Below, one piece after another: positions 4,843 to 37,249 of a DNA stretch of 41,821 nucleotides. Source of the DNA: Dehalococcoidales bacterium (GTDB lineage: Bacteria; Chloroflexota; Dehalococcoidia; Dehalococcoidales; Fen-1064); NCBI GenBank assembly GCA_016783135.1, contig JADHXC010000015.1:1-41821 (forward strand), given 5' to 3'. The position numbers and the translations under genes are program-made. The notes beneath the pieces are model-generated. The model ran no database searches. It worked only from the letters and a program-made list of their open reading frames with translations, and was not told the DNA's origin. Each line of letters starts with the position of its first letter. The first letter of the stretch is position 1.

Positions 4843-5889
4843 CTAGTGAACACTCTGGGTCGACAACAATCTGCCCGACCACCTTAAGAATGCTGCACCG
4901 AGGACGATGAGCGGTACCATGTACAGTAACACATCCAGGGTACCGGTGTAGTGACTGCCTGTAGCCAGCCTTGCCATCAGACTGAACGGTGACGGACTGA
5001 CCAGGTAGCTCAGGCCGACCATCACCACCAGCCCCATGGAGTAGGCGAACTGAGCCCTCTCCCTGTCCTTGAAGTAGAGCGAGGCGGCGGCCGCACCCAC
5101 GGATACGATGGTACCAACGGTAGCACTAAGCAGGAGTACCAGGCCGAGGTTCTCTATGTACAGGTGGTTCAGCCGCAGCAGCAGCGCCCAGGCCGTACAC
5201 TGGACTAGCACGGTAATAACCGCGGCACATACCTTGGCCCCGAGTATCTGGTTGAGTGAAACCGGCGCCGACCGGAGGGTATCCAGTGTCTTGTTCTCAA
5301 CCTCCTCCGACACGGTATCGATGACGATACTCCCTGCCAGCAAGGCGGGGAAGAACATGAGTATCGGGAGAATCAGCGAGTACAGGAACTCGTAGCTGGT
5401 GTCTGTCCGGGCGTGCAGGTCCGTATATTGCATGGCGATGCCGTTCTGCTCGCGTAGATAGGACTCGTATTTCTTCAACGGCTCCTTGAGTACCATCATT
5501 ATCACGGTTGCCCTGGAGTCCATCTCAGGCAACATCAGCTTCATATTCACCACGTTCCCAATCTTCTCCGGCACAAGGAGGACGGTATCCACCCGGCCGG
5601 TCTGGAAGGCACTCTCGGCACTGGCGGCATCGGGTAGTGACTTGACCCTGAGACTCTCCTCCTTCAGTATTCCCACCAGCGGTCCGTCGGTCTGGTCAAC
5701 TACGCCTACCGTGACTGTCATTTTAGTGCTCTGCCCGATGGAGTCGGGGTCGTAGAAAGCCATCAGACCGGTGACGATAACCGAGGAGAAAGATGCAATG
5801 AAAAGCTGAATGACGATGGCCAGCATAATCGTCTTCTCTTTGGTGACGGACTTCAGCTCTCTCCGCACCATGGCGAAGAACCTGCTCAT
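4843..5889 (-). CDS. ABC-2 type exporter permease
   Basis: A 348-residue NatB/YhgE-like ABC-2 permease. It has an N-terminal membrane anchor (IMLAIVIQLFIASFSSVIV), a large extracytoplasmic domain, then about five hydrophobic segments with SEEVENKTLDTLRSAPVS, the family signature before the coupling region. The frame is open to 5994, but the start is taken at ATG 5889: it overlaps the upstream permease stop as ATGA and gives the canonical MSRFFAMVRRELKSVTKEKT start. Translationally coupled to the upstream permease. It should form a transporter with that permease and the ATPase at 7753-8727. Cargo unknown; sodium, antibiotic or peptide export are options. Confidence 0.85.
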   Translation of the reverse strand: MSRFFAMVRRELKSVTKEKTIMLAIVIQLFIASFSSVIVTGLMAFYDPDSIGQSTKMTVTVGVVDQTDGPLVGILKEESLRVKSLPDAASAESAFQTGRVDTVLLVPEKIGNVVNMKLMLPEMDSRATVIMMVLKEPLKKYESYLREQNGIAMQYTDLHARTDTSYEFLYSLILPILMFFPALLAGSIVIDTVSEEVENKTLDTLRSAPVSLNQILGAKVCAAVITVLVQCTAWALLLRLNHLYIENLGLVLLLSATVGTIVSVGAAAASLYFKDRERAQFAYSMGLVVMVGLSYLVSPSPFSLMARLATGSHYTGTLDVLLYMVPLIVLGAAFLRWSGRLLSTQSVH

Positions 5890-7652
5890 GATAGCACTCC
5901 CACTACGGTAAGATTGTACAGAATATGAAGGACGGAACCGGCGATTATCGCTAATGGATATCGTTTCACGCCGAAGCGGGCTGTTATCAGGCACACGAAA
6001 GAGGTGAATATAAAGTGGGCGAGCAGAGGCATTATCAGAAGACCCGAACCGAAGATGGCGGTAGTGAACATGGATTCGGATATCACCTTAAGGGCAACAT
6101 AAAGCAGCAGCTTTTCACCGGCAAAGAAACCCAGGGCAGCAACGAACGACAGAGTTATCACGGCCTTTGTGGACTTCACCACGCCATTCTGCAGGAGGAC
6201 GGCGATTCCGGCTGATTTGGCAATCTCTTCCACGACAACGGACAATACCAGTACGGTGCCCATGGCGTAGGCAATCGGTAGATTGAAGGCAATAGCTATT
6301 GAGGCCAGCTGCACCATGAAGACCGCCGGGATGATGAAAATGCTGAGAAGGAATATGGACAGGTGTGGATGTCTCTTGTTTATCGTCAGGTGGAGCGCCT
6401 CACCCAGTTTCCGGTGAAGCGGTCGGAAGCCCATGAGGTACTCCTCGTTGAAGACGCGTGTCCCGATGAACATCCCCAGCCCAAAGATAAGGTACATCGG
6501 TGTGGTGGAGAGGAGATACTCACTCAGCCCGAATGTTTCTCCCTTGTACATCTCTACTGCCAGGTTGAGCGGTGATATGTAACTGAGGTCACTTATCCCG
6601 GAGAACATAGACGGGAAGATGAGGTAGATGGTGATACCTGATACCGCCAGCAGTGAGAAAAACGTCTGGTCTTTGAAGGTGCGGTAGAGCAGGGACACCA
6701 TCAGGTATATAGACAGGATAAAGAGCATGATGGGAACGAAGATTGCCAGGGCCAGGGGGACGCTGCCCTTGAGCAGCAGGGTTATCACGATGATGCTGAT
6801 AACCGAGTACCCGATATAAGGCAGCATCTTGCCCACGATAATCTGAAAAGGCGTGACCGGTGTAGAGAGAAGAACTACGAGCTTCCGGTTAATCTTCTCC
6901 TCCATGAAGCTGCTTGTGAAGAAGATACTGATGAAGAAGATAGGCACCACGTAGAAGAAGGCGAGCATTACCTGGGCGAGGGGAATTGGCGGGTCCATCA
7001 GGGACGGGATGATTATCTCTTCGTCGGAGACGAACTCCGCCTTGAACTCCGGCAGTGCGCCGCCACTCCGGAAATCCTCCAGCTGTGCCAGGACCGCGCT
7101 GTCGGTGGAGCCGGACGACCCCGGTGAGAGCCCTGACTCAGGAGAGCTATCGGCTGGTTCCAGCAGGTCCCAGAACGATACCTCGGCGCTGGCGACAGCG
7201 ATATTGCCCTCCGGTAGTTCCACATGGTGGACCTCGACGCGAAGCGGGAACGCCCTATCGAGTTCATATTTATTTGCTATTCGGGACAACTCTTGCTTTT
7301 CCAGGAATTGCTTCAGCGCACCGGCAGCGCATAGTGACCGCCGTTCATCCTTCCGCCAGACCACTTCCCCACCGTTGATGTAGACATCTATCTTCTTCTC
7401 GGCCAGCAGTGTATAGCCCGTGATACGGTCGACGGTAACGACATTGAAGCGTGTATCCGATATCGTGGGGGCATCCGGGCCGGCACCAATTGTGTAGAAC
7501 TCCTTGCTGAGGATGAACCCCTGCTGAGAGACGAAATAAGACAGGAATGCAGCCAGTCCGATGACAAGCAGGATAATCACTCTTGACCTGCCCCGGAAAC
7601 GTGTCCGCAGGCGGGTGATTTCCCGCTTTGAGATGGTCAGGATATTCCTCAT
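5886..7652 (-). CDS. ABC-2 permease fused to a PrsW-like intramembrane protease domain
   Basis: 588 residues. Residues 1-400: an ABC-2/NatB-like permease with one N-terminal TM (about 24-42), an extracytoplasmic domain with a Ser/Pro/Gly linker (about 168-185), and a TM bundle starting at about 226 containing MEEKINRKLVVLLSTPVTPFQ. Residues about 430-588: a second multi-TM domain with EEIAK (E475, E476, K479), GFFAGEK (F510, E513), H546 in LLAHF, and H576-x3-N580. That is the order and spacing of PrsW/CPBP-type intramembrane metalloproteases. The middle gene of the exporter operon; its stop overlaps the next start. The fusion suggests regulated cleavage of a membrane substrate tied to transport; this is inference. 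Confidence 0.75.
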   Translation of the reverse strand: MRNILTISKREITRLRTRFRGRSRVIILLVIGLAAFLSYFVSQQGFILSKEFYTIGAGPDAPTISDTRFNVVTVDRITGYTLLAEKKIDVYINGGEVVWRKDERRSLCAAGALKQFLEKQELSRIANKYELDRAFPLRVEVHHVELPEGNIAVASAEVSFWDLLEPADSSPESGLSPGSSGSTDSAVLAQLEDFRSGGALPEFKAEFVSDEEIIIPSLMDPPIPLAQVMLAFFYVVPIFFISIFFTSSFMEEKINRKLVVLLSTPVTPFQIIVGKMLPYIGYSVISIIVITLLLKGSVPLALAIFVPIMLFILSIYLMVSLLYRTFKDQTFFSLLAVSGITIYLIFPSMFSGISDLSYISPLNLAVEMYKGETFGLSEYLLSTTPMYLIFGLGMFIGTRVFNEEYLMGFRPLHRKLGEALHLTINKRHPHLSIFLLSIFIIPAVFMVQLASIAIAFNLPIAYAMGTVLVLSVVVEEIAKSAGIAVLLQNGVVKSTKAVITLSFVAALGFFAGEKLLLYVALKVISESMFTTAIFGSGLLIMPLLAHFIFTSFVCLITARFGVKRYPLAIIAGSVLHILYNLTVVGVLS

Positions 7653-7666
7653 AGTGAAAAACAGGG

Positions 7667-7732
7667 CCTGCCCCGTGACCCGGGGCAGGACGGCTCCCCT
7701 TCCCGTAAATGCCCCACAGCTTGCTGTGGGGC
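7667..7732. promoter_or_regulatory. Two strong hairpins between ATPase and permease genes of the ABC operon
   Basis: CCTGCCCC-N7-GGGGCAGG (7667-7689) and the perfect 10-bp stem GCCCCACAGC-TT-GCTGTGGGGC (7711-7732; only 2 nt between arms, so the loop must open by a pair) fill the 100-nt gap after the ATPase stop. Neither is followed by a T-run on the minus strand. They could stabilise the ATPase segment of the mRNA or attenuate the permease genes. Confidence 0.4.
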
Positions 7733-7752
7733 ACTTCTATTGGCGGTCTGGC

Positions 7753-8727
7753 CTACACGGAGTCGGGTGCAGCCAGCTCGGTGCCGTTCATCAGCTTCAC
7801 GTAGATATCTTCTAGGGCGGACTGCCGGATGGAGAGGTCCACCAGAGCCCAGCCTTTGTCCGAGACCTGCCGCAGCAGTGAAGCTATCTGTCCGACATCG
7901 GCAGACTTGAATATGTAGTTGTCGCCCCTCTTTTCGTAGGGCAGGTCATCCGCCGTCTTGAAGGTTATCTCGTACTCCCTTTCTCCCAGTCTCTGCCGGA
8001 GGGACTCCATGGAATCAACTACTACCAGTCGACCATTCTTCAGAATGGCGACACGGTCGCAGATGTATTCGATATGGAACAGGTTATGGGCGCTGAGAAG
8101 AATTGTCTTACCCTCGTCCCTCAGTGCCCTGAGATAGTCTATAATGAAAAAAGAGGTCAGCGGGTCCAGCCCTGAGTTTGGCTCATCGAGTATCAGCAGT
8201 CCGGGGTTATGTAGCAGGGTTCGGGCGATGGCTGCCTTCCGTTTCATGCCCTTGGAGAGCTCGCCGGTGAGCTTGTTCTCTTCGGCCAGATTCAGTACCC
8301 CGAGCAACCGGTGGATACGGTCGCGTGCCACACTGCGCGGGATGCGGTAAAGCTCCGAGAAGAACAACAGGTACTCGGTGACCGTCATGTTCTCGTAGAA
8401 TGGACTCTCCTCCGGCAGGTACCCTATGAAGCTCTTGATACGCGTACCTTCCCTGGTGATGTCCATGCCCATTATCTCTATACTACCCTCGGTTGGACTT
8501 ATCAGGCCGGTTATCATCTTGAGAATGGTGGTCTTACCGGCACCGTTATGACCGATGATACCCAGGATTTCACCTTCTCTGACATCCAGGTCCAGATGGT
8601 CGACGGCGACACAGTCCCGGTAGGACTTGCTGACGCCTTGCAGCATGATGATAGGGTTCTCACCTGTTTGAGTCCAATTGTCTCTGTATCTCTGTGAAAA
8701 CGGTCGCTCGATTACCTGGCGCAACAA
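7753..8727 (-). CDS. ABC transporter ATP-binding protein (ABC-2 exporter type)
   Basis: 324 residues. Walker A GHNGAGKTT (59-67), signature LSKGM (157-161, a variant of LSGGQ), Walker B LLILDEP with D181/E182, and H-loop LLSAHNL are intact; a C-terminal regulatory extension of about 90 residues follows. It powers the two permeases downstream on the same strand. The start is a TTG at 8727 (or the next TTG at 8724), preceded by GGAAGGAG. An internal ATG (residue 28) would remove residues just ahead of the first beta strand and has no good ribosome site. First gene of a three-gene operon. Confidence 0.88.
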   Translation of the reverse strand: MLRQVIERPFSQRYRDNWTQTGENPIIMLQGVSKSYRDCVAVDHLDLDVREGEILGIIGHNGAGKTTILKMITGLISPTEGSIEIMGMDITREGTRIKSFIGYLPEESPFYENMTVTEYLLFFSELYRIPRSVARDRIHRLLGVLNLAEENKLTGELSKGMKRKAAIARTLLHNPGLLILDEPNSGLDPLTSFFIIDYLRALRDEGKTILLSAHNLFHIEYICDRVAILKNGRLVVVDSMESLRQRLGEREYEITFKTADDLPYEKRGDNYIFKSADVGQIASLLRQVSDKGWALVDLSIRQSALEDIYVKLMNGTELAAPDSV

Positions 8728-13668: not shown

Positions 13669-13759
13669 ACAATAACATCGATGCAGATGGTCTGTCTTAA
13701 TCAAGATGTATCTATTTCGGAATAAGGCGAGATACCGGGAGTATCAAAAGGGGAGGACC

Positions 13760-16700
13760 ATGAAGAGGTCAGGAAAGATAAAGGTAGCAGCCGTGGTACT
13801 GCTTCTGGCGCTGGTTGGCTCGATTATGCCGGCCTGTCGCTGTGCAGGACCGGCGGAAAGCTACATGGCAATGGTGCCGCGAGTCCTGCACAGCGGCAGC
13901 ACGGAGTCGGTCTCCCTGGCGCTCTTCCAGGGAGAAAGGCTGGTGTCTGGTAATGTCCAGGTCTCGCTGTTGAAGGATGGCAAGGAGATAGTCCGGGCCA
14001 GCAAGACCATCAAAGGTAAGGGAACGATAGAGATTGACATCCCCGATGTTGCTGAAGGGCAGTATCAGGTCCAGGTAACGGGAGAGGGTTTTGAAGATAA
14101 GGCGACGGTAGTCGTGGAGAAGAGCCTTCTCGTCTTTCTGGAAACAGACAAGCCGATATACAAACCCGGCCAGACGATGCACATGAAGGTGGTCACGCTC
14201 AATGGTGAACTCATGGCTGAAGTCGGTCAGGTGGTCGTGGAAGTCTTTGACGCTAAGGGGATAAAGATATTCCGCAAGGAAGTACAGACGGATGACTTCG
14301 GGATGGTCGATATAGACCTGCCCATCTCCACGGAACCGAACGAGGGCGTCTGGAAGATAAACGCCATCACGGAAAAGGGGAAGACCCAGCTTGACGTGCG
14401 GGTGGAGAAGTACGTGCTCCCCAAGTACGAGGTCAAGGTAGAGCTTCCCAGGGACTGGTTCCTGGTAAACGAACCCTTAACAGGCAAAGTGAGTTCGGAG
14501 TACAGCTTCGGCAAACCGGTGAAGGGAGAGCTGGAAATCAGGGCCTCACGCTATGTCGGTGAATGGCAGGAGTACGCCACGTTCGCGAAGGACATTGACG
14601 GCGAGGCGGAGTTCGAGCTACCACCGGTACGTTACGTAGCCGGGGTCCCCGAGGCCGGTGGCAAGGGCAACGTTATGCTTGACATAACTGTCCGAGAGAC
14701 GGCCACCGGTTACGAGGAGCAGACCAGTCGACTTCTCTCGGTTGCCGAATCACCGTTGACTATGCAGCTAATACCGGAGAGCATGGTCTTCAAACCGGGT
14801 CTGGCATTCGGCTTCCTGGTAATCACCGAGACACCGGGTAATGAACCCGTAGACAAGCAGGTAGAGTTGGGGATACGGTACCTCGATGGTGAATACGAGG
14901 AGATAAAGACTGAGGAAAAGAGGGTTAATACCGGCAAGGGGAAAGCGATGGTTACCGTTACGCCACCGGATGAAGCGGTCGCCATGATTATTGATGCCCG
15001 TGCCGAGGACGCCGGGACTTCAGTGACCCTTCAGGCTTCCTACTCACCTTCGGGAAATTTCATACACGTGGAACAGGTAAGTGAAGGTACTCCGCGAATA
15101 GGGGAACAGATAAAGTTCAAGGTCAACTCCACCCGGCGGGCAGCCAACTTCTACTACGAGGTCGTATCGCGCGACAAGGTGGTGTTTTCCGATTATACAG
15201 GGAGCAGCACGATTGCCTTCGATACCACCCCGATGATGACACCGTCCGCCAGGCTGCTGGTATACCAGATTCTACCCAACAGCGAGGTTGCCGCGGACTA
15301 CATACCGTTCCAGGTCATACCGGAGTACCCACATAATGTAACGGCGGAGTTCAGCAAAGAGGAGGCCGCACCCGGCACCGAAGTGGACATCAACCTCACC
15401 ACCGAGGGTGAAGCCAGGGTGGGCATTGCCGTTGTAGACAGGTCCGTTTTCATACTGGCCGAGAACCGGCTCAACCTCCAGCAGGTCTTCGATGAGCTGG
15501 AGAGGCTCTACATGAAGCCCCAGGTGGAGCTGCACGAAGTCTCAATCTACCCGACAATCACCACCAGGGGGGCGAAGGATGTCTTTGAGGATGCCGGCGT
15601 GGTGGTGCTGAGTAACAATAACATACCCGAAGGCAAGGAGTACGAGTCCCAGGGAGGCAAGGGCATTTTCCTGGCGCGTGATGGTCTCATGGAGAAGGGA
15701 ATGGCAATGGTTGAGGAGGCCGAAGCAGCACCGGTTGTTGCGGCTTCGGCGACCGATGATGCCGGACTGGCCGAGGTGCAGCGGGTGCGGCAGTTCTTCC
15801 CCGAAACCTGGCTGTGGCAGAACATAGTTACTGATACCGAAGGCCGGGCCTCTCTGACAGTGACTGTGCCGGATACCATCACCACCTGGATGCTGCGTGC
15901 CATCGCCATATCCAGGGAGAAGGGATTGGGAATAGGAGAAGACCAGTTGCGGGCGTTTCAGCCGTTCTTCCTCAAGATAGACCTGCCGTACTCGGCGATA
16001 AGGAGTGAGGAGTTCCCGGTGCAAGTAGCCATCTACAACTACCTGGATGAGCCTCAGAGCGTGCAGGTGGAGATTGAAGAAGCCGACTGGTTCGACTTGC
16101 TGGACGAGGATGTCCGAACGGTTGAGATAGCTGCCAACGAGATTGGCGGAGCCTCATTCGTGATTCGACCGACAGGGCTGGGCATCAATGAAGTCAAGGT
16201 TACGGCCCGCAGTCAGCAGGCAGCCGATGCCATGATAAAGACCATCATCATCGAGCCGGAGGGCGTTTCCCGGGAGGTGGTAGACAACCTTACCCTGTCG
16301 GAAGGGGACTCACACGTAATCTCGACAGCAATACCTTTCGAGGCTGTTACCGGCTCCGGCCGGGCATACCTGACAGTGACCTCCAGCTACCTCACCCAGA
16401 CTATCGAAGGACTGGAGGAGCTTATCCAGATGCCTTTCGGCTGTGGCGAGCAGAACATGATAACGCTGGCGCCCGATATCTTCATCACCAGGTACCTCCA
16501 GGAGAGCGGTCAGGTCAAGCCGGAGATAATGGCCAGGGCCGAGAAACTGATGATAACCGGTTACCAGAGACAGTTGACCTACCGCCGTAATGACGGCAGC
16601 TTCTCCGCCTTCGGTCAGAGCGATGATGAGGGCAGCCTGTGGCTGACTGCCTTTGTCCTTAAGTCGTTCGCCCAGGCCAGGGACCTCATGTATATCGACG

Positions 16701-17893
16701 ATAGTGTGCTCAATGAGGCCATGACGTGGATAAAGGGTCACCAGAGCCAGGACGGCTCCTTTGACGTCGTCGGGTTTGTACACCACCAGGAGATGTTGGG
16801 CGGGATGTCCGGTAAGGATGCCCTGACGGCCTATGTTGCCATAGCCCTGATGGAAGCAGGGGACACCACTGGCGCTGCCAGGGCAGTCGACTACCTGGAA
16901 GGCAGGCTCAGCGGAATGGATGACGCCTACACTGTGGCGCTCACCGCCTACGCCCTGGAGCTTGCCGGTAGCGACAGGAGTGATGAAGTCTATCAGAAGC
17001 TGATGGACATGGCCCAGGAAGACGAGGATGGTCTGCACTGGGGTGCCGGAGAGGGGCCGGTGCCTGTGGAAGGCGAAGGTATCACCCGCCGCATGCCGGG
17101 AGACCAGAACCGAAGCACCGAGATTGAGACTACTGCCTATGCCACCCTGGCTCTCATCGAACGTGGCGATGTCTTCAATGCGTCACGCTCCTCCAGGTGG
17201 CTGGTATCGCGCAGAAACGCCTATGGCGGCTACGGCTCCACTCAGGACACGGTGGTCACGCTTCAGGCGCTCACCGAGTACTCCACCGGCACCAGGGCTG
17301 ATGTTGACCTGACGATAACCATCAATACCGAAGGAATCAGCAAGCAGCTCAGGCTGACCCAGGACAACTTCGATGTCCTCCAGGTGGTGGCGATACCGGT
17401 CGACCGTGAGGTCGAGATAGGTGTCACCGGCAAGGGTGAGGCCGTCGCACAGGTAGTACGCAGGTTCAACCTGCCCGAGGCGGAAAGGGGCGAGGAAATC
17501 CTGAGCATAGACGTTGACTACGATGTCACTGATGTCGAGGTGAACGACCTGGTGACAGTATCGGTGGAACTGGCCTTCAACCCACCGGTGCCCATGAAGG
17601 CAGGGATGATTGTTGCCGATATCTCTGTACCGACTGGTTTTACCCCGGTGGCGGAGACAATCGCGGCTGCTGTCGAAGCGGAGGCCAGTCTCAAGCGCTA
17701 TGATGTTGCCGGACGCAAGGTGATATTCTACATCGAGGATATGTTTACCGGCGACCGGATATCCTTCACCTTCCAGGTGAGGGCAATGTACCCCGTCAAG
17801 GCCAGGGGTGTTAGCTCCGAGGTGTATTCCTACTACAAACCGGAAATCCGTGGCGAGACGCTGGGCGAGGATGTCATCGTCACCGGAAACTAG
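13760..17893 (+). CDS. Alpha-2-macroglobulin family lipoprotein with thioester
   Basis: 1377 residues. The ATG at 13760 is preferred over the upstream in-frame ATG (13706): GGGGAGG sits just upstream and it puts a signal peptide first (MKRSGKIKVAAVVLLLALVG) with Cys26 in a weak lipobox (IMPAC), suggesting a membrane-anchored lipoprotein. Macroglobulin domains follow (TDKPIYKPGQ at 129-138 is the conserved motif), then a bait-like low-complexity stretch at about 590-670. The thioester PFGCGEQNM with Cys895 and helical repeats (SQDGSFD, AYGGYGSTQDTVV) of the thioester domain follow, and a C-terminal receptor-binding-like domain. Family role: trapping proteases via bait cleavage and covalent thioester capture. 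Layout is closer to CD109/A2M than to the very long enterobacterial form. No PBP1c gene is adjacent. Confidence 0.9.
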   Translation: MKRSGKIKVAAVVLLLALVGSIMPACRCAGPAESYMAMVPRVLHSGSTESVSLALFQGERLVSGNVQVSLLKDGKEIVRASKTIKGKGTIEIDIPDVAEGQYQVQVTGEGFEDKATVVVEKSLLVFLETDKPIYKPGQTMHMKVVTLNGELMAEVGQVVVEVFDAKGIKIFRKEVQTDDFGMVDIDLPISTEPNEGVWKINAITEKGKTQLDVRVEKYVLPKYEVKVELPRDWFLVNEPLTGKVSSEYSFGKPVKGELEIRASRYVGEWQEYATFAKDIDGEAEFELPPVRYVAGVPEAGGKGNVMLDITVRETATGYEEQTSRLLSVAESPLTMQLIPESMVFKPGLAFGFLVITETPGNEPVDKQVELGIRYLDGEYEEIKTEEKRVNTGKGKAMVTVTPPDEAVAMIIDARAEDAGTSVTLQASYSPSGNFIHVEQVSEGTPRIGEQIKFKVNSTRRAANFYYEVVSRDKVVFSDYTGSSTIAFDTTPMMTPSARLLVYQILPNSEVAADYIPFQVIPEYPHNVTAEFSKEEAAPGTEVDINLTTEGEARVGIAVVDRSVFILAENRLNLQQVFDELERLYMKPQVELHEVSIYPTITTRGAKDVFEDAGVVVLSNNNIPEGKEYESQGGKGIFLARDGLMEKGMAMVEEAEAAPVVAASATDDAGLAEVQRVRQFFPETWLWQNIVTDTEGRASLTVTVPDTITTWMLRAIAISREKGLGIGEDQLRAFQPFFLKIDLPYSAIRSEEFPVQVAIYNYLDEPQSVQVEIEEADWFDLLDEDVRTVEIAANEIGGASFVIRPTGLGINEVKVTARSQQAADAMIKTIIIEPEGVSREVVDNLTLSEGDSHVISTAIPFEAVTGSGRAYLTVTSSYLTQTIEGLEELIQMPFGCGEQNMITLAPDIFITRYLQESGQVKPEIMARAEKLMITGYQRQLTYRRNDGSFSAFGQSDDEGSLWLTAFVLKSFAQARDLMYIDDSVLNEAMTWIKGHQSQDGSFDVVGFVHHQEMLGGMSGKDALTAYVAIALMEAGDTTGAARAVDYLEGRLSGMDDAYTVALTAYALELAGSDRSDEVYQKLMDMAQEDEDGLHWGAGEGPVPVEGEGITRRMPGDQNRSTEIETTAYATLALIERGDVFNASRSSRWLVSRRNAYGGYGSTQDTVVTLQALTEYSTGTRADVDLTITINTEGISKQLRLTQDNFDVLQVVAIPVDREVEIGVTGKGEAVAQVVRRFNLPEAERGEEILSIDVDYDVTDVEVNDLVTVSVELAFNPPVPMKAGMIVADISVPTGFTPVAETIAAAVEAEASLKRYDVAGRKVIFYIEDMFTGDRISFTFQVRAMYPVKARGVSSEVYSYYKPEIRGETLGEDVIVTGN

Positions 17894-22180: not shown

Positions 22181-23020
22181 GTGGCACAGCAATCCCGCAT
22201 TCAAGAACTGGCGCAGGCCACGCATTTCATGCGATGGGTAACAGGAAGTGATCTATCTCCGGTCGATGAGCCGGACAGGACACAGTCGTCACGTCCGGGC
22301 GGGCATCCGGACTTTGTGTTCAGCGCTCCCCCACGCGGACAATACGTGATTGAAGTAACCCGGTTGTTGACACCGGAATTGAGAACCTTGGAGGGACAGC
22401 TGCAGAAGAACGTCGCCTCGGGGTTTCAGGGAGATGTGAAGGGTACTTGGGCTTTAGAGGTGCCACCGGAAGTGCTCGGCCAGCTGGACTTGCGGGGGCA
22501 GGCTGCACAGCAAGTAGTGACGGAAATCACCGGGATCCTAACGGCTGGTGGCCGGTCGCCGGGTCGCCACGTTCTAGACAACGGCTTCGTGCTCTGGCAG
22601 GCCAGGGAAGACGGGGCTAAGATTGTTCCCCTGGTCACCATGAGAGGATTGCCAGCAGAGGCAGACGGCAGGAGTAAGCAGGGCCGGGCACTTCGGAACG
22701 AGCTAGGCAGGATCCTACGCGAAGCACACTGCAAGTTTCAGGGATACGCTGAGCACCGCATTCTGCTTGTGGACGTCTCGCAGAGTGGCCTAGACGTCGA
22801 TTTCCACGCCGGGTTCTCAAAGTCGGGCCCGGGAATCTTGCGGAAGTGGTGTTCAGCACTGCTTACAAGACGGACGAACATCGACCACGTGTGCCTGGAG
22901 CCGGGAATCCGAGTATTTAGGGGCATCACGAACTTGTTGGCAACAGGCCACAAGTACGTCGACACCCCGGGGGGCTACTACCGTGAAGTCTGGACCAGGA
23001 CCGATCTTACGAAGTTGTAG
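22181..23020 (+). CDS. Predicted PD-(D/E)XK-like nuclease, candidate restriction endonuclease
   Basis: 279 residues, no family recognised with confidence. HPDFVFS (P43-D44) followed by YVIEVTRLL (E58-V59-T60) has the layout of a PD-(D/E)XK core, with Thr replacing the final Lys, a variant seen in some uncharacterised nuclease-like families. The rest is soluble alpha/beta with no TM. It lies between a C-protein-like regulator and a cytosine methyltransferase, the usual place of a restriction enzyme. GTG start at 22181 with GGGAG about 7 nt upstream. Restriction activity is inferred from position plus the weak motif. Confidence 0.55.
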   Translation: MAQQSRIQELAQATHFMRWVTGSDLSPVDEPDRTQSSRPGGHPDFVFSAPPRGQYVIEVTRLLTPELRTLEGQLQKNVASGFQGDVKGTWALEVPPEVLGQLDLRGQAAQQVVTEITGILTAGGRSPGRHVLDNGFVLWQAREDGAKIVPLVTMRGLPAEADGRSKQGRALRNELGRILREAHCKFQGYAEHRILLVDVSQSGLDVDFHAGFSKSGPGILRKWCSALLTRRTNIDHVCLEPGIRVFRGITNLLATGHKYVDTPGGYYREVWTRTDLTKL

Positions 23021-23087
23021 TGAAAGCAACGACGGGGCAGGGACAGAAAAGTAGGCTTCCTCAACTGCCCGGTATGAAGGAAGAGGA

Positions 23088-24302
23088 ATGAACTTGCGGA
23101 GAGCGTCTTTGGGTGAGGCTGCCGTTCATACCAGTGGCTGTGCCGCGCCGCGGCACGCCGCCCCGACGGCTATTGACCTCTTCTGTGGTGCAGGCGGGCT
23201 GACGCTCGGACTGAAGCAAGCCGGTTTCAGTGTCCTAGCTGCTGTTGATAATGACCCATTGGCGATAGAGACCTACAGACAGAATCACCCTGAGGTTATC
23301 ACGTGGTGCCGAGACATTCGAGCACTCGCGCCCATGGAGGTAATGCAGAGCGTGGGGTTTCGGCCGGGAGACCTGGACCTTCTGGCCGGATGTCCTCCCT
23401 GTCAAGGATATTCGATGATGAGAACGCTTAACGGTAGCCGCACCGTTGATGATGACCGCAACGGCCTCGCCCGCGATTTCCTCCGGTTTGTGAAAGCCCT
23501 ATTGCCGAAGGTCGTGATGATGGAGAATGTGCCAGGCCTAGCGACCGATGCCATAATGGCAGAAGGGCTTAGGCAATTGGAGGGTCTTGGCTACTTCACT
23601 GGGTTCCACCTAGGAGACATGACGGTTAGCGGAGGTGGCTCTCAGGTGGTCCGAATACTCGACGCCGCGGAGTACGGCGTTCCTCAACGCCGGCGAAGGA
23701 TGCTTCTCCTCACAGGACGATTCGGAGCCGTGCCGTTCGCTCCCGCGGACCTGACGCGGGCTACGGTGTGGGATACAATAGGACGGCTGCCAGCCCCGGG
23801 AAGTGGCTATGATCCACTACACAATTGTACGGAGAAGAGGTCAGAGCGCATTCGTGGGCTGATCGGTAAGATCCCGAGAGACGGAGGGAGCAGAAGTAGC
23901 CTGGGAGTCGACGAACAACTGGCCTGCCACAGAGCGTGCACGGGATTCAAGGACGTGTATGGCAGGATGTCATGGGGCAAGGTGGCGCCGACCATCACGA
24001 GCGGGTGTACCAATCCGTCGAAGGGGCGTTTTCTACATCCTGAACAAGACCGAGCGATCACGCTGCGCGAGGCCGCCCTGCTGCAATCATTCCCTGCCGA
24101 CTACTCGTTCTCGCCGCAGCAGGGAAAACAGGGGGCAGCGAGGCTCATCGGGAATGCGATTCCACCGGAGTTCGCCCGGCGACAGGCTGTGAAGATTCGC
24201 GAGTACCTTCAGGCGGAGCAGAGCACAGCCGGTGACGACCTACCCCCAGAGAGCCAGGCTGTGCCAGAACGACGGGAGGTGCTGGAGAATGACAAGCATT
24301 GA
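23088..24302 (+). CDS. DNA (cytosine-5-)-methyltransferase
   Basis: 404 residues. SAM-binding motif I DLFCGAGGLTLGL (30-42), catalytic motif IV GCPPCQGYS with Cys105, motif VI ENVP (146-149), motif VIII QRRRR (200-204) and motif X GNAIPP (355-360) are in order. The target-recognition region is short (about 230-310) and ends PTITSGCTNPSKGRFLHPEQ. All catalytic motifs are present. It transfers a methyl group to C5 of cytosine in an unknown site. The tail beyond residue 375 is disordered. It overlaps the helicase start by 14 nt, so expression of the two is coupled. Confidence 0.93.
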   Translation: MNLRRASLGEAAVHTSGCAAPRHAAPTAIDLFCGAGGLTLGLKQAGFSVLAAVDNDPLAIETYRQNHPEVITWCRDIRALAPMEVMQSVGFRPGDLDLLAGCPPCQGYSMMRTLNGSRTVDDDRNGLARDFLRFVKALLPKVVMMENVPGLATDAIMAEGLRQLEGLGYFTGFHLGDMTVSGGGSQVVRILDAAEYGVPQRRRRMLLLTGRFGAVPFAPADLTRATVWDTIGRLPAPGSGYDPLHNCTEKRSERIRGLIGKIPRDGGSRSSLGVDEQLACHRACTGFKDVYGRMSWGKVAPTITSGCTNPSKGRFLHPEQDRAITLREAALLQSFPADYSFSPQQGKQGAARLIGNAIPPEFARRQAVKIREYLQAEQSTAGDDLPPESQAVPERREVLENDKH

Positions 24303-27204
24303 GGATATTCTGGAGCAGGAATTGACCCCTGGGCAACGTGATGCCGCATCGGATCCGGCTGCAGAGGTGCTCACGCTCGCCTGCGCCGGATCGGGGAAAT
24401 CAAAGACCCTGGCGTACCGTATCGCTCGGATCGTAGCCGAGGGCCAGAACCCGTCAAGCATCGTCGCGTTCACGTTCACCGTGAAGGCAGCAGACTCTAT
24501 CAAGCTTCAGGTATCACGAGCCATCGAGAACGTTGGCCTGGATCCCGCCATCATTGGTGCGATGTACATCGGGACAATACACTCGTATTGCGAATACGTT
24601 CTGACGGAGATGAATGCCCGGTACCGGCAATTCGATGTACTGGATCCAAACCGGCTGCGGCTGTATCTTATCTCCCGATACGGCGAACTGGGTCTGTACC
24701 GGTTGCGCGCGCGAGCGCGCCGCCAGAGCTACTTTGACACGGTGAATCAGGTTGCCGAGGCCTGGGCGACGATGAACGATGAGGGAATCGCAATCGGGGA
24801 TGTAGTAGCCGAAGACCCAGAACTCGGAGAGTTGCTGTCCAACTTGGCCGCGTACATGAACCGAGACGAGTTCATAGACTTTTCCCTGATGATACGCCGT
24901 GCCGCGGACGCCTTGGCTGGGCAGGACCCAGACGCGCTTAGGGCAGTTCGCGACCTGAGACACTTGATGGTCGACGAGTATCAGGATGTCAATCCTGCCC
25001 AAGAGGAATTGATACGGCAACTGCACCGTCACTCGCAGACATTATTCGTGGTCGGTGATGACGACCAGGCTATCTACGCGTGGCGGGGTGCAGATGTAGG
25101 CAACATCCTGACGTTTCAGGAACGATATCCCGGGGCGTCCCAGCATACCTTGTCCTTCAATTTCCGGAGCACCCGTGCAATAGTCCGAACCGCCGACGAG
25201 TTCGCCGCTCAGCAACTGGGCGCAACGCGGACGGTGAAGAACCCCGAAGCCGAGGACCCGGAAGGTCCACGGGACTATCGCGTCCTATGGTTTCCAGACA
25301 GAGAGCATGAGGCCGAGTGGGTCATAGAGCGCATTCGGGCGCTGCTCGGAACCGCCTATCGAGAACGTGACGGCACAGTTCGGGGCCTGACGCCGGCCGA
25401 CTTCGCGATCCTGATGCGCTCCACGAGAACGGCCGAGCAGAATGGCGAACCACGTCATGCGGCCTTCACCCGTAGGCTTGGTAACGACGATATCCCCTTC
25501 TCCCTTGAGCAAGGCGGCGGCATATTCGAACGACCCGAGGTGCGTGTGCTGAGCGATACTTTGGAGACGCTGAGGAACGGCACACCTGACCGAGACTCCG
25601 TTCGCGAGCTCTTCCGAAACAGTGTGGAACCGGCATATCCGCATGCCGATTTCAACCGCTTGGCGGCTGTGCTTACCGACTGGGGTCGGCGGATCCACGC
25701 CCCGCCAGGGGGGCCACGGCAGCGCATCTATCCGCAGATGCTGGTTCACGACCTTCTTGCTGCGTTCGGTCTCGCTGAGAGCGACTTTGGCGAAGCGGTC
25801 CTGCTCGACCTTGGAGTCTTCAGTCGAATAATGCAGGACGTGGAGGCGGTCTACATGAGCATTGACTCAGCCAGTCGATTCGGTGAAGTGCTCAACTTCC
25901 TGCATCATGTTGCGGAAACGGGTTACGACACAGGGACTAGCGAATTGCAGGTTCGCCCCGATGCCGTCACGGTATCTACCGTGCACCGTGTCAAAGGGCT
26001 GGAGTTCCCGGTCGTGGTCGTTGCGGACGTAGAGAACGGTCGTTTCCCAGGCAGACGCCACGACTACGACGGCTGGATACCGGGCAACCTGATTGCAGAC
26101 GCCCTCCAGAGAGGAGCATATCAAAGCACGATTGACGAGGAGGCGCGCCTCTTCTATACAGCGTTGACTCGAGCCGAGCGTTTCCTATACGTGGCCGGCA
26201 GCGAGTGGCTTCCGGACGGCCGGAGGGCCAGGAACCGATCACGCTTCGCTCTGTATCTTAGGGATGAAGAGATATCTGACGACCCTGTCGGCCTGCCCGA
26301 AGGTCTCAGACCCGAAACGCCGGTTCGTCGCCTGGAGGAGACCTCTATTCCGACGAGCTTCTCCGACATCAGCTATTATCTGCGATGCCCGAGGGATTAC
26401 CAGATGCGCAGGGTGTTCGGCTTCAGCCCAGCCATTGCGGAGATGTTCGGATTCGGGATGACTATTCACGCGGCAATAAGCCGGCTGCACCAGCAATTCC
26501 CGGACAGCATGCCTACGGGCGAAGCAGCCGAAGAAATCGCCAGAGAGATCTTCCACCTGAAACACGTTCCACAGAGCGCTGACCCCGAAAGCAGACCCGG
26601 TGCATACGAGCGAGCGCAGGCCCGAGCCGCGGAGATCGTGAGGGCATACGTCGAGGCCTATGGGGATGATTTCGCCCACCGACGGCAGGTGGAAGCACGG
26701 TTTGAGATTCCGGTTGGCGAAGCTGCCATTTCAGGCTCAATAGACCTGATCATCAGAGAGGATACTGAAGGCAACATCCTAGATGCAAGCGTCCTTGAGT
26801 ACAAAACGCTCGAGGGGGGCCAAGTGCCTGAGGAAGAAGAGAGTTTGCATTGGACCGACCTCTCCACGCAGGTCCAGCTCTACGCCAAAGCAGCAAGGGA
26901 GGTTCTCGGTGAGAACACTCGAACAGGGGCCGTCCACCTGCTACGAGACAACCAGCGGATCGACGTCCCGGTCAGTGATGAAGCGGTCAATGCAGCCGTG
27001 GCGAACGTGGAATGGGCCGTGGAACGAATACTCGATAGTGATTTCCCACGACGACCCCGACAAGATAAGTGCAACTCGTGTGACTTCAAGGCATTATGTT
27101 CCCTGCGCCCGGAGTCGTTCAAGACTAACCGTGTGCCCCCACCAATCCACACACCGGCAGGAGCCCGGCAGGCGCGAGCATTCAGTGAGTACGAAGAGGG
27201 GTAG
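24289..27204 (+). CDS. UvrD-like superfamily 1 helicase fused to Fe-S PD-(D/E)XK nuclease
   Basis: 971 residues from the ATG at 24289; the open frame to 24232 is inside the methyltransferase and lacks homology. Walker A ACAGSGKSKT (31-40), DEYQD, GDDDQAIYAWRGAD, FNFRST, VSTVHRVKGLEFPVVVV and YTALTRAERFLYV are the SF1A helicase motifs. The C-terminal about 300 residues form an AddB/Cas4-type nuclease: first Cys in YLRCPRDYQ, GSIDLI (Asp), VLEYKT (E-x-K), QVQLYA, and CNSCDFKALC for a 4Fe-4S cluster. It would unwind 3'-5' and degrade DNA. Coupling to a 5mC methyltransferase suggests a restriction or repair effector. It is not the chromosomal RecB/AddA by context. Confidence 0.88.
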   Translation: MTSIEDILEQELTPGQRDAASDPAAEVLTLACAGSGKSKTLAYRIARIVAEGQNPSSIVAFTFTVKAADSIKLQVSRAIENVGLDPAIIGAMYIGTIHSYCEYVLTEMNARYRQFDVLDPNRLRLYLISRYGELGLYRLRARARRQSYFDTVNQVAEAWATMNDEGIAIGDVVAEDPELGELLSNLAAYMNRDEFIDFSLMIRRAADALAGQDPDALRAVRDLRHLMVDEYQDVNPAQEELIRQLHRHSQTLFVVGDDDQAIYAWRGADVGNILTFQERYPGASQHTLSFNFRSTRAIVRTADEFAAQQLGATRTVKNPEAEDPEGPRDYRVLWFPDREHEAEWVIERIRALLGTAYRERDGTVRGLTPADFAILMRSTRTAEQNGEPRHAAFTRRLGNDDIPFSLEQGGGIFERPEVRVLSDTLETLRNGTPDRDSVRELFRNSVEPAYPHADFNRLAAVLTDWGRRIHAPPGGPRQRIYPQMLVHDLLAAFGLAESDFGEAVLLDLGVFSRIMQDVEAVYMSIDSASRFGEVLNFLHHVAETGYDTGTSELQVRPDAVTVSTVHRVKGLEFPVVVVADVENGRFPGRRHDYDGWIPGNLIADALQRGAYQSTIDEEARLFYTALTRAERFLYVAGSEWLPDGRRARNRSRFALYLRDEEISDDPVGLPEGLRPETPVRRLEETSIPTSFSDISYYLRCPRDYQMRRVFGFSPAIAEMFGFGMTIHAAISRLHQQFPDSMPTGEAAEEIAREIFHLKHVPQSADPESRPGAYERAQARAAEIVRAYVEAYGDDFAHRRQVEARFEIPVGEAAISGSIDLIIREDTEGNILDASVLEYKTLEGGQVPEEEESLHWTDLSTQVQLYAKAAREVLGENTRTGAVHLLRDNQRIDVPVSDEAVNAAVANVEWAVERILDSDFPRRPRQDKCNSCDFKALCSLRPESFKTNRVPPPIHTPAGARQARAFSEYEEG

Positions 27205-27279
27205 GCTGGCACGTAGTTGCACGCTGAGCTTGGTGAGCGGATGACTGGCAACTGCCGGGGGGATTCCGAGAGGAGTTGC

Positions 27280-27966
27280 GTGCTGCCTTCAAAGCGGGAC
27301 GTAGAGGTGCGGATACGAAGGGCAGCCGCCACTCTGGCTACCCTGCCGCCGTTCGGAGTCGATGTCCCGTGGAGAAGGTGTCGAACTCCGTACCGCATAT
27401 TCTTGGCTGAACTCCTCTTGGTCAGAACCCGCGTGGACTTGGTTGCCGAGCGCTTCGAAGGGATCTACCGTCGTTTTCCCTCACCCGCTGCATTCGCTGC
27501 AGCTTCGCAGGATGATGTGGCGGAGGCACTTGCTTCACTGGGACTACGTAAGAGAATCCCACTGATAAGACGGGCCATGGAGTATCTCGTTGACAGACAT
27601 GACGGATGCATACCGGCAAGTCAGGAAGAGCTGCTGCGAATACCCGGCGTGGGAACATATGCAGCGGCGGCGACTGCTGCATTCGCCTTCGGTCATAGGG
27701 GTGTGCCTGCGGACGTCAATGTTCTGCGTCTATTGGCAAGGATCACGGGACTCGAAATGGAGCACAGAACCAAGGGGTCAAAGACCCTGAGAGCATTACT
27801 GCCGTTGCTGGCTCCGGAAACAGGAGGTCCTGCGTGCGAGGTTGTCCTGGACTTCGCGCGTTTGACATGCAAACCAAGGCGACCAAGATGCGATGAGTGC
27901 TCTCTAGTATCCTGCTGTCACCACGCTCATGCACACATCCCGCCTGCATCCGCCTCAAGTGCGTGA
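27280..27966 (+). CDS. HhH-GPD DNA glycosylase of T:G-mismatch (Mig) type
   Basis: 228 residues from the GTG at 27280, which has AGAGGAG 4 nt upstream; in-frame TTG 27217 and ATG 27241 are alternatives. PWRRCRTPYRIFLAELLLVRT opens the MutY/EndoIII fold. In the helix-hairpin-helix IPGVGTYAAAA the position of EndoIII's catalytic Lys is Tyr127, and Asp145 lies in VPADVNVL. A Tyr/Asp pair 18 residues apart is the arrangement of Mig.MthI (Y126/D144), the thymine glycosylase encoded with a 5mC methyltransferase. The cluster cysteines C-x6-C-x2-C-x5-C (197-213) are intact. Likely job: removing T from T:G pairs made by deamination of this operon's 5-methylcytosines. Confidence 0.85.
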   Translation: MLPSKRDVEVRIRRAAATLATLPPFGVDVPWRRCRTPYRIFLAELLLVRTRVDLVAERFEGIYRRFPSPAAFAAASQDDVAEALASLGLRKRIPLIRRAMEYLVDRHDGCIPASQEELLRIPGVGTYAAAATAAFAFGHRGVPADVNVLRLLARITGLEMEHRTKGSKTLRALLPLLAPETGGPACEVVLDFARLTCKPRRPRCDECSLVSCCHHAHAHIPPASASSA

Positions 27967-28117
27967 GCCTTCACTGAGTGTGTTCTGAACGCACTGTCGG
28001 CAAGCTCTTTATCCAACAGGCTCGGACTGTGGATGTTTAGAGGTACTGTTGCAGTAGGAATTCAGGGTCACCTCTCACCTGTCCACGAGCAACCCAGTTG
28101 TCCGTCTGGGAGAGATT

Positions 28118-28217
28118 CTGGGCACCTTTGATCGCATACAAAGTGAGTTGACGGATGCCCTGGAAGGTCTGAGCCAGGAGGAGTTGACATGGCGGCCGGG
28201 ACCACCCCATCCTGCAA
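28118..28217 (+). pseudogene. DinB-superfamily gene remnant
   Basis: A short stretch encodes DRIQSELTDALEGLSQEEL followed by TWRPGP, the typical first helix and turn of DinB/DUF664 four-helix proteins. The frame then degenerates; the metal-ligand histidines are missing and no full domain can be assembled. A decayed fragment with no expected function. Confidence 0.4.
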
Positions 28218-28349
28218 CGGCACCGTACTCGGCCACGTCAATGAAGGGCGCAATAGCCGCCACGGGAACCTTTGTCAAGTACCCATGGCGATCAAGGAGG
28301 CCTTCAAGTTCAGGACATTCCTGCACCGGGGTATCGGCAGGAAGACGAT

Positions 28350-28504
28350 CTAGTGTACCGTCTCATAAATGACCTTACAGCGAGTGATCTTGGCGAGAAT
28401 GGACTCGATCGATGCCTGCCATACGAACGGCCTAGGGTCGGTATTGGACGCCGCCAGATACTCATCAACCGCTATGTCATTCTATATATGAGACACTAGA
28501 CTAG
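28350..28504. repeat. MITE-B copy 2 (155 bp)
   Basis: Ends CTAGTGTACCGTCTCATAAA and ATGAGACACTAGACTAG mirror each other imperfectly. The interior (CCTTACAGCGAG, GACTCGATCGATGCC) matches the copy at 19535-19685. CTAG termini, non-coding. Confidence 0.65.
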
Positions 28505-28941
28505 CGTGGCCACGATCCAAGCCGCTCTGTCGGCGTGTTGTCTGGCAGCCACTATCAAAGCCTTCACAACGAGGTCATTCCCCACCATGCGAAGGGCCTC
28601 TGAGGCAGCTGCTCTCTGGTGCTCAAACCAGGCCGTTACGTTAAGTCTGGGGAGAGCCGCAAGAGGGCTCCCCCGAAGCGAAGATGACGTCGGCGGCAAG
28701 CAATCGCTGCGGATCTGATTGGCGATGAACGAACTGGATGCTGGCCAGACACGCAGTCCCAGCTACGTGTACGCGGCCACTTATGATGCTAGCGGATACT
28801 ACGCCTTGATGCCGATCAACAGTCTTATCCTCGCCGGTGACCTCCTCAATGCCATTGACCAAATCAAGGAGATTGACCTTTTCCAATCTCCTCTTCTTCC
28901 TGCTCAGTCTGGACAGCGCCGGGGACGACTGCATTGCATTA
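28505..28941. other. Intergenic, no gene recognised
   Basis: About 440 bp between the MITE-B copy and the stop of the minus-strand unknown gene. Several short overlapping open frames exist on both strands (60-100 codons), but none resembles a family or has a good ribosome site. Probably decayed sequence separating the two defence blocks. Confidence 0.4.
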
Positions 28942-29694
28942 TTAGCCATCGTGAGCAGGAGGAGAATGGCCTTTCAAAATATCTTCGATTATTGTGTAGC
29001 ACTGCTGAGCGACATTAACAAACGGACTAATATCGTCACATGGTAATAGCACGCCGTCCTGGTTGCGTTTCTTTATTCCGATTTCCGTTTCGGAACCGTC
29101 CCATGCCTTCACCTTTACCAATTGTGGCCTACCTTGGCCGACCTTGATCCACTGGAAGTCTACGTAGGTGCCATGCAAAGAGGTCATAGGTTTGTCTTTC
29201 GTAGATATTTCAGAGACTCTGAATCGCCAACCATGCTTGATTGCGTTGTGGAAACCGTGGTACTGCCCCCTGAATTGTTGCAGCTTCTCGTATCTTTCTC
29301 CTATTCCCGAATAGTCGAGTGCTGAGGTCTGCTCATGATGAATGTTGAATATGTTTCTGATATCCTCATGTGTTAGTTGATTCAAGTTGCTGTAGAAGTC
29401 CGCGACCTCGGTCGGTGTTACACTTAATACTCGCTCCATGTACAGCAGCCCAGTCTCTTTGCAGGCTAGAGAATAGCAGGCAACATCCTCAACATACTGG
29501 CAAGCAAGTTCAGCAATCATGATTTCTATGTACGCTCTACCTTGGAATTGAGTATTTCTACTGATGTTGGGAAAGAACTGGTCAAATTTGTTGAACAGCA
29601 CTTCCAGCAATTTGACAGTGCCATACCTGTTGGCATGAAGATGGTCGATAGCAATGAGAGGAGACCAATCCAACTCAGCTTCTTCTAAGTCCAT
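28942..29694 (-). CDS. Uncharacterised protein with YHGFHNAIKHG motif
   Basis: 250 residues, not recognised. The ATG at 29694 is chosen over the GTG at 29715 because GGAGG lies 6 nt upstream of it. The first 120 residues look all-helical (AYIEIMIAELACQYVEDVAC). FRGQYHGFHNAIKHGWRF (about 141-158) resembles the xNAxKHG helix of HEPN-like or DUF5677-like helical proteins, and a beta-rich segment plus a final helix follow. No TM or signal peptide. Base composition is clearly more AT-rich than the genes on either side, suggesting recent transfer. Last gene in the minus-strand run; a defence accessory role is only inferred from place. Confidence 0.6.
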   Translation of the reverse strand: MDLEEAELDWSPLIAIDHLHANRYGTVKLLEVLFNKFDQFFPNISRNTQFQGRAYIEIMIAELACQYVEDVACYSLACKETGLLYMERVLSVTPTEVADFYSNLNQLTHEDIRNIFNIHHEQTSALDYSGIGERYEKLQQFRGQYHGFHNAIKHGWRFRVSEISTKDKPMTSLHGTYVDFQWIKVGQGRPQLVKVKAWDGSETEIGIKKRNQDGVLLPCDDISPFVNVAQQCYTIIEDILKGHSPPAHDG

Positions 29695-29894
29695 TGTGTT
29701 CCTCCGTTTACCCACCTCTTATTGGTTGGGCTTCCAGCACAAGCGTAGTTGCTTGTTAAGTCGAAGTCAATTGATCATGGAAAAAGCTGAGGACACTTTC
29801 TGACGTGTTGTGGGCAATGTAGCTTCGCTTATATCGCGCAACGCCTTCTTCATGTGCCCGTTAGAAAAGATAGCTAGGGGTAATACAATCTAAA

Positions 29895-30350
29895 TTACCT
29901 CTCAACTAAAGCTGGCAAACAGTTGTGTACACGAAAATAATTACCTTTCACTAACCTTTCAGTTTCCTCAGGTAGATCATTTTGCAGCCATCCATATTCG
30001 AGTTTCCAACCACCCCATAGAAGAGCCCAAGTAGGATACATAGCCACATGTCGTCCACGGAAGTCCTGAAACCGCGACCTAAAGGAAGTCGGGGCAGCAC
30101 CGATGTAAATTATCGGACAATTAGCAATACGATTTAGCCTATTCAACCGATTTTGGACCCTTTTGGTGAGAAAGTCCCATCCGATCTCATCCAATAGTCT
30201 AAATGCTCGATTAGTAATTTCGTCAACAGGAATCCCCATTTGTTTCACACGGATAGCATATACACCTATGCTGGAAAGGTCGCGGCTAGGAACAACAGTC
30301 GTTATGTCTTTCCATCGGAAATCAACAAACACTTCATCACATTGACACAT
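29895..30350 (-). CDS. GIY-YIG nuclease-domain protein
   Basis: 151 residues. The two-part signature is present: GVYAIRV (G29-V30-Y31) and PIIYIGAA (Y82-I83-G84), then the conserved Arg segment SFRSRFQDF (R91/R93) and a late Glu cluster PEETERL (128-131) that could supply the metal-binding Glu. So it is a small stand-alone GIY-YIG fold, likely a nuclease. The ATG at 30350 has GGAGG about 6 nt upstream. The gene begins 49 nt inside the end of the upstream membrane-protein gene in another frame, implying coupled translation. AT-rich like its downstream neighbour. Target unknown. Confidence 0.72.
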   Translation of the reverse strand: MCQCDEVFVDFRWKDITTVVPSRDLSSIGVYAIRVKQMGIPVDEITNRAFRLLDEIGWDFLTKRVQNRLNRLNRIANCPIIYIGAAPTSFRSRFQDFRGRHVAMYPTWALLWGGWKLEYGWLQNDLPEETERLVKGNYFRVHNCLPALVER

Positions 30351-30814
30351 GTTTCACCTCCTGCTAACATCACGAACTTAGTTGGCATATCTTTCCGTAG
30401 AGTCACACCCATGTGCCCGTGCAGGACCCGAGAAGGCATATCGGCTCCGTGCACTTCCACATCGTTATTGAACATCCCTTCTGAGGGCTGCCTGCCTCTC
30501 TTGCCGACGACACGCATCCACGTAGCGCGGGCCAACTGTACCCTGTTAAAGTTGAAAGAAGCGTTCCCCGCGTTCCACACCGTGGCCACGATGACATGTC
30601 TGTCCTGCGTGGGCTCAAAGGCGAAGTGAATGTCCTTGCCGCTCAGGATGAAGGCTGGTATCGGGACCACGAAGACAGCTATCACGATCGGGACGAGTAG
30701 GTTGATCGTGCTTCTGTAGTCATCCGAGTCCTCGATCCAAACCAAGGGCAGAGTGAAGACAATAGCAAGGATGACCAAGGCGGCAATCAGGAATACCCCG
30801 ACGTTCCCGTTCAA
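30302..30814 (-). CDS. Two-TM membrane protein with soluble C-terminal domain
   Basis: 170 residues. Two hydrophobic helices (VGVFLIAALVILAIVFTLPL at about 5-24 and NLLVPIVIAVFVVPIPAFIL at about 38-57), then a soluble domain with beta-strand character (HVIVATVWNAGNASFNFNRVQ...). No family recognised. The start is TTG at 30814 with AGGAGG 9 nt upstream. The frame is open further upstream and reads VEPADIEF there, close to the C-terminus of the XRE protein, so it may have arisen by fusion or deletion at an XRE gene. It overlaps the GIY-YIG gene by 49 nt. Possibly a membrane effector or sensor. Confidence 0.6.
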   Translation of the reverse strand: MNGNVGVFLIAALVILAIVFTLPLVWIEDSDDYRSTINLLVPIVIAVFVVPIPAFILSGKDIHFAFEPTQDRHVIVATVWNAGNASFNFNRVQLARATWMRVVGKRGRQPSEGMFNNDVEVHGADMPSRVLHGHMGVTLRKDMPTKFVMLAGGETCVNVMKCLLISDGKT

Positions 30815-30946
30815 TGCTCCGGCCTCCTGGAACTCAATATCCGCCGGCTCGACTCGTGGGCGTCCGCATCCGGAGCGTGTTTCAAGAAACGCCGCACGCC
30901 GTTGAACCCGGCCCCACGAGACGGCAGTGTAGACGTGAAAACTCAG

Positions 30947-33385: not shown

Positions 33386-33414
33386 AAACTGCAGGCTCCC
33401 CGGTCTGTGGGTAC

Positions 33415-33480: not shown

Positions 33481-33606
33481 GAAGAGTCAGTGTCATAGTC
33501 GGGTAGCTCCGTAAGTCCCATACGGTGATCCATGTCCTGTCTGACGTGTTCGGTCCGACTGAGTCCTCCATTATTCTCTTCCACCATTTTCTCAAATCCT
33601 GCACTC

Positions 33607-37137: not shown

Positions 37138-37146
37138 GCATATCCT

Positions 37147-37233: not shown

Positions 37234-37249
37234 CACTGCTACACTCCTA

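Follow-up and report, generated by a model that had tools for sequence, protein, structure and literature searches.

Why should the permease subunit of an ABC exporter end in a set of helices bearing the motifs of an intramembrane protease? The question is raised by a gene in the window analyzed here, a stretch of 41,821 nucleotides from a Dehalococcoidales contig (JADHXC010000015.1). Three genes lie in a row on the minus strand: an ABC ATPase, a permease extended by the protease-like domain, hereafter the fused gene, and a second ABC-2 permease (Table 1). The limits of the fused ORF given in the first-pass annotation of this DNA are correct. The ATG of the second permease overlaps the stop codon of the fused gene, while the ORF itself opens further upstream. 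The best NCBIfam model for the ATPase is DrrA, with a score below its cut-off. Two hairpins separate the ATPase gene from the fused gene; a T run comes after the second and lies a few bases upstream of the ATG of the fused permease, and this arrangement resembles an intrinsic terminator or an attenuator within the operon.

Table 1. Features of the three-gene locus (positions are those of the window; residue numbers are those of the fused protein).
Feature	Position	Strand	Remarks
ABC transporter ATP-binding protein	7753..8727	-	324 aa from TTG; true start uncertain; PF00005 111.8 bits
Intergenic stretch with two strong hairpins	7653..7752	-	MFE -50 kcal/mol, z -3.24; 0 of 200 shuffles equal it
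Fused gene, ABC-2 permease and PrsW-type domain	5886..7652	-	588 aa; ATG at 7652, TGA 5886-5888
ABC-2 permease part, residues 1-424	6381..7652	-	PF12698 at 226-392, 22.2 bits (below cut-off)
PrsW-type intramembrane protease domain (predicted), residues 428-588	5889..6371	-	profile comparison and motif conservation
Motif 1, EEIAK, residues 475-479	6216..6230	-	E475, E476, K479 invariant in 17/17 and the archaeon
Motif 2, FFAGE, residues 509-513	6114..6128	-	F509, G512, E513 (and K514) invariant in 17/17 and the archaeon
Motif 3, H546	6015..6017	-	invariant in 17/17 and the archaeon
Motif 4, HILYN (HxxxN), residues 576-580	5913..5927	-	H576, Y579, N580 invariant in 17/17 and the archaeon
Second ABC-2 permease, without protease domain	4843..5889	-	348 aa; PF12698 71.3 bits

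The remainder of the contig holds other features. Positions 22181-40180 are likely to form a defence island. A C5 cytosine methyltransferase (23088-24302), a UvrD/GajB-like helicase with a C-terminal match to a Cas4-like nuclease (24232-27204), a protein matching a model of a type II nicking endonuclease (27217-27966), an HKD and Snf2 helicase (33607-37137) and a protein resembling a type IIG restriction-methyltransferase (37250-40180) are found there; PADLOC models give no match for an 812-aa protein (30947-33385) or a 279-aa protein (22181-23020). On the plus strand, positions 13706-17893 encode a 1395-aa protein that, judged by eye, resembles a bacterial alpha-2-macroglobulin and carries a CGEQ thioester motif.

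In the N-terminal part of the fused protein, a first hydrophobic segment (residues 19-48) is followed by a large hydrophilic region (~49-220) and by a block of hydrophobic segments reaching ~353, before a separate set of five segments begins at residue 428. The PF12698 match lies below the 31.6-bit cut-off of that model. PF12698 matches 12 of 13 homologues at E<=1, and of six scanned one by one, five exceed the cut-off (46.3, 38.4, 38.4, 36.9 and 36.5 bits; the sixth reaches 27.0). An ABC ATPase gene, the neighbor expected of an ABC-2 exporter permease, adjoins the fused gene in 16 of the 17 loci compared, this contig included, and in many of them it is divergent instead of in line. The second permease adjoins the fused gene in 16 loci as well, the exception being L004, where the contig ends within the fused gene. 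To note, L103 (G016:C164) is the sole locus of the 17 in which no adjacent ABC ATPase was found; its second permease is present.

The C-terminal part comprises hydrophobic segments at 428-464, 449-487, 491-524, 527-562 and 566-588, so that every motif sits in a separate hydrophobic stretch. The succession EEIAK, FFAGE, H546 and HILYN, one per stretch, is the order described for PrsW. The first-pass annotation had singled out EEIAK, FFAGEK, a histidine and HILYN, with E475, E476, E513, H546 and H576 as key residues, and its motifs, numbering and hydrophobic placement all hold. Over 18 sequences, the mean number of lysines and arginines is 2.67 in loop 486-496 and 2.17 in loop 558-566, as compared to 0.06 in 453-459 and 0.17 in 523-536. 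From this distribution the first two loops are expected to be cytoplasmic and the other two outside; the five helices would therefore finish with the C-terminus outside.

The alignment of 17 Chloroflexota domains consists of this protein and 16 others, two of which are close to it (L006, 98% identity; L002, 95%); E475, E476, K479, F509, G512, E513, K514, H546, T550, H576, Y579 and N580 are invariant throughout. With an archaeal homologue added, both glutamates of motif 1, E513 and both histidines are kept in 18 of 18 sequences. The dN/dS ratios of the domain against two near relatives (0.057 and 0.082; 0.042 and 0.018 for the ABC membrane part) indicate purifying selection, and the domain is clearly constrained. 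A search pattern combining the four motifs and the distances between them, composed after the motifs had been seen, is matched by 37 of 1676 ORFs, namely 19 of 20 fused proteins, 18 of 21 PrsW and none other. The fused protein that misses it is L004, cut by the contig end, and the pattern never arises in 200,000 shuffled versions of residues 425-588.

FxxxE is a motif of the PrsW superfamily, and the four-helix core fold of PrsW is common to Rce1 and APH-1. PrsW has been described with EExxK in TMH3, HxxxD in TMH6 and, in TMH5, another conserved histidine, which type II CAAX proteases do not have (PMC4602095). The motifs are all present in the fused domain, in the form of EExxK, FxxxE, the extra histidine (H546) and, for HxxxD/N, HxxxN. 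Model searches give a divided answer. The domain of the fused protein itself has no Pfam match even at E 10, NCBIfam yields nothing above noise for the protein, and the full-length family members scanned show no PrsW match. PF13367 (PrsW) is passed, at a cut-off of 23.5 bits and over most of the profile, by three of the 17 family domains (L022, 34.8 bits; L055, 29.2; L020, 25.6), the other 14 showing no PrsW match in the Pfam scan. The first-pass annotation had proposed such a profile search and had named low scores together with lost residues as evidence against its reading: scores are indeed absent for this protein, and the residues are kept in every domain aligned.

Profile-profile comparison carries the assignment further. 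With hhalign, the 17-sequence domain profile aligns to PrsW of related genomes with a probability of 82-87 and with the EExxK, FxxxE, H and HxxxN motifs in register; the PrsW profile was built from 20 ORFs taken from 30 PrsW loci, the other ten loci being left out. Controls with CPBP and with reversed PrsW give probabilities of 0.7 and 0.3, respectively, and none of 200 block shuffles attains the real score of 41.1 (best shuffle, 34.7). The signal needed the 17 sequences against the PrsW set: four domain sequences against one PrsW yield a probability of 0.4. When the fused-domain profile was run against the 1676 ORFs, the top eight matches outside the family all came from PrsW loci and all carried EExxK; the best is significant (E 1.9e-4), while the other seven (E 0.1 to 1.6) individually are not. 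In the reverse direction, the PrsW profile finds no convincing match among the fused proteins (best L053, E 3.9). Searches of the Protein Data Bank sequences with the domain profile (no match at E<=10), of PHROGs with the fused protein (no match) and of viral contigs (111 pattern matches, none a relative) returned nothing. Taken together, the C-terminal domain almost certainly belongs to the PrsW superfamily, as judged from its motifs and profiles.

Membership in the CPBP/Rce1 family (PF02517) was considered and rejected: the first motif is EExxK instead of EExxxR, the hhalign control fails, and the domain of the fused protein is unmatched by the model, which gives 18.1 bits on the sister domain L019, under its cut-off of 22.4. 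The earlier proposal of a PrsW/CPBP match is narrowed to its PrsW half.

Structure prediction adds little resolution. A domain model from four input sequences is weak (pLDDT 67, pTM 0.60), and AlphaFold2, run on the full-length protein from one sequence, gives an unusable model (pLDDT 39.5). Foldseek finds no PDB match to the weak domain model at E<=0.001. VIA-align places APH-1 of gamma-secretase first (Z 10.2; 9.5 for another entry), in a near-tie with NosY (Z 10.0) and with NosY and MlaE permeases over the range 9.4 to 10.0. Rce1 is absent among the structural matches listed by either program, which speaks neither for nor against it.

The distribution of the fusion was surveyed in Chloroflexota, in genome samples (151, 393, 400 and 350) that overlap. 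Full-length relatives occur in four of 151 related genomes, three more matches being short and weak; at the level of the class, 10 of 393 genomes carry the domain, and at that of the phylum, six of 400. A contig scan by single sequence, sensitive to close relatives alone, found three loci. The nearest named relative, 95% identical, comes from a Dehalococcoidales MAG. Several rows were left out of the counts: L014 repeats the protein of L003 and L007 that of L002, L052 lies at the position of L016, L005 and L013 are this locus itself, and L009-L011 are short, weak permease matches; L004, truncated ahead of motif 2, was dropped from the main counts and kept in some comparisons. The joining of an ABC-2 permease to the protease-like domain, as first claimed from this single sequence, is real and is shared by all the full-length homologues identified. 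The ABC half was not encountered without the protease domain at E<=1e-15, since the three genomes of 350 that matched all did so in fused frames.

The fusion extends beyond the phylum. A megaplasmid of Haladaptatus salinisoli (NZ_CP085330.1), one record among the 72,556 of a plasmid collection, encodes a homologue that aligns over 94% of the length of the fused protein (26% identity by tblastn, E 4e-32). Its locus has the same order as here, ATPase, fused permease, permease, and the homologue bears the same letter at all invariant positions except T550. It carries the product name ‘ABC transporter permease subunit’ and matches ABC2_membrane_2, while no protease model matches it. The survey of other genomes suggested in the first-pass annotation finds the fusion in other Chloroflexota and in a haloarchaeon.

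No linked substrate gene was found when the ORFs of the 17 loci were clustered by blastp, because the only neighbors that recur widely are the ATPase and the second permease. Neighbors common to four loci belong to L003, L091, L092 and L094, which resemble one another, and two loose neighbor clusters (8 and 9) each reach five loci. The first-pass annotation had suggested that the domain matures the exported peptide or frees a membrane-tethered regulator, and the evidence speaks neither for nor against these two roles. The genome that carries the fused gene also encodes a stand-alone PrsW and a stand-alone Rce1-like protein; the fused domain is therefore no replacement for either.

Kinship to PrsW, conservation of the residues expected in the active site, a fixed fusion and an operon are established at the level of sequence. 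What these add up to is, as the best explanation and with modest confidence, an exporter with two permeases, one of them bearing an active intramembrane protease of the PrsW type. The exporter would consist of the ATPase and two different ABC-2 permeases, one carrying a minimal five-helix protease at its C-terminus, whose Glu and His residues would form an active site in mid-membrane. Since protease and permease share one chain, the substrate would be a membrane-anchored protein or peptide meeting the transporter. Movement driven by ATP, or the binding of substrate, may present it to the protease or open the protease. The fused domain is probably catalytically active, because the Glu and His residues of the family are kept. 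Kept histidines alone are no proof of catalysis, as the relative APH-1 is a non-catalytic subunit of gamma-secretase. That proteolysis is functionally coupled to the transporter is somewhat more likely than not: covalent attachment has been kept over a long evolutionary distance, so cutting likely serves the substrate or the state of the transporter. Given such coupling, the balance tips slightly toward a protease that processes a membrane-anchored client or controls its quality, ahead of one that releases a signaling protein under regulation. A further step is put forward tentatively, namely that the ATP cycle directly controls or feeds the PrsW site, so that a membrane-anchored client would be exported and cut in one coupled reaction.

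Other readings start from the same residues. The C-terminal helices could merely be extra transmembrane segments of the ABC permease, their motifs coincidental, as ABC permease folds score near APH-1 against the weak model and the domain of the fused protein matches no model. This is scarcely credible given that the motif pattern occurs in no unrelated ORF of the 1676 and in no shuffle, that three sister domains exceed the curated PrsW cut-off and that the profile alignment to PrsW keeps the motifs in register. It is also quite improbable that a PrsW relative has been retained in the permease for assembly or regulation, cutting nothing, in the manner of APH-1. Five Glu and His residues invariant in all 18 sequences exceed the likely needs of a scaffold, although APH-1 is the top structural match (tied with unrelated ABC permeases) and the PrsW scores of the domain itself are weak.

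A role in signal transduction is unlikely, if less so than the loss of catalysis. Here the exporter's own flux would signal a compound or a stress on the envelope, and the domain would make the site-1 cut in a membrane-anchored regulator, for example an anti-sigma factor. There is a precedent in B. subtilis PrsW, which performs the site-1 cut of the anti-sigma factor RsiW (PMC3482391, PMC4602095), and PrsW domains fused to signaling domains are considered likely signaling peptidases (PMC3482391). Conversely, no neighbor besides the ATPase and the permease recurs widely in the 17 loci, and the usual task may already be filled by the separate PrsW of the same genome. The favored reading remains the exporter with an active protease on one permease.

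PrsW proteases have so far been known mainly via one anti-sigma pathway and via fusions to toxin and signaling domains. With a PrsW domain fixed to one subunit of an ABC exporter in Bacteria and in at least one archaeon, the protease family gains a physical partner, and the question arises whether ATP-driven transport can power or gate intramembrane cutting. If so, a transport-gated protease would run from Chloroflexota to a haloarchaeon while being annotated merely as an ABC permease. The annotation gap is visible on both sides: the archaeal homologue is named a permease alone, and the fused protein here has no protease model match.

Among known systems, the closest to the domain is PrsW itself (PF13367; B. 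subtilis PrsW), with which it shares EExxK, FxxxE, H and HxxxN/D across four successive helices. The domain differs in sitting C-terminal to an ABC-2 permease and in having five hydrophobic segments, as compared to eight helices in most PrsW (PMC3482391). Whereas PrsW is described with HxxxD, the fused domain has HxxxN, as does the stand-alone PrsW of the same genome. The fusions treated in section 9 of PMC3482391 involve toxins, PilZ, cyclic-nucleotide-binding, FHA and Zn-ribbon domains, and that section does not mention an ABC fusion; nor is a PrsW-ABC permease fusion described in the literature searched by title and beginning of abstract, where subscription journals are thinly covered. APH-1, a distant PrsW relative (PMC4602095, PMC3482391), resembles the domain in heading the VIA-align rows of the weak model, tied with unrelated folds, but is a eukaryotic subunit unfused to any transporter. 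The two-permease layout has its own counterpart. We take the operon to be comparable to ABC-2 exporters of the NatAB/DrrAB kind, which likewise combine one ATPase with adjacent ABC2_membrane_3 permeases, but here one permease bears an extra protease domain.

The fusion itself finds its nearest parallel in NCBIfam NF041647 (ABC permease/CPBP intramembrane protease), similar by name and by its length of 636 positions in that a permease is joined to a protease. Membership was rejected: the model, with its cut-off of 435 bits, gives no match to the fused protein, the best place in the genome reaches 41.8 bits, the second permease scores 19.2 bits, and 0 of 251 Chloroflexota genomes pass the cut-off. 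A side observation concerns L109-L118, Chloroflexota permeases that match just the first ~400 positions of NF041647, in most rows with a stop codon within the match; they are possibly unfused or split forms of that system. The protease of NF041647 is of the CPBP type and the one here of the PrsW type, both within the same wide superfamily. The principle of a permease/protease fusion is already known from NF041647, and it is the PrsW branch of the superfamily that differs here.
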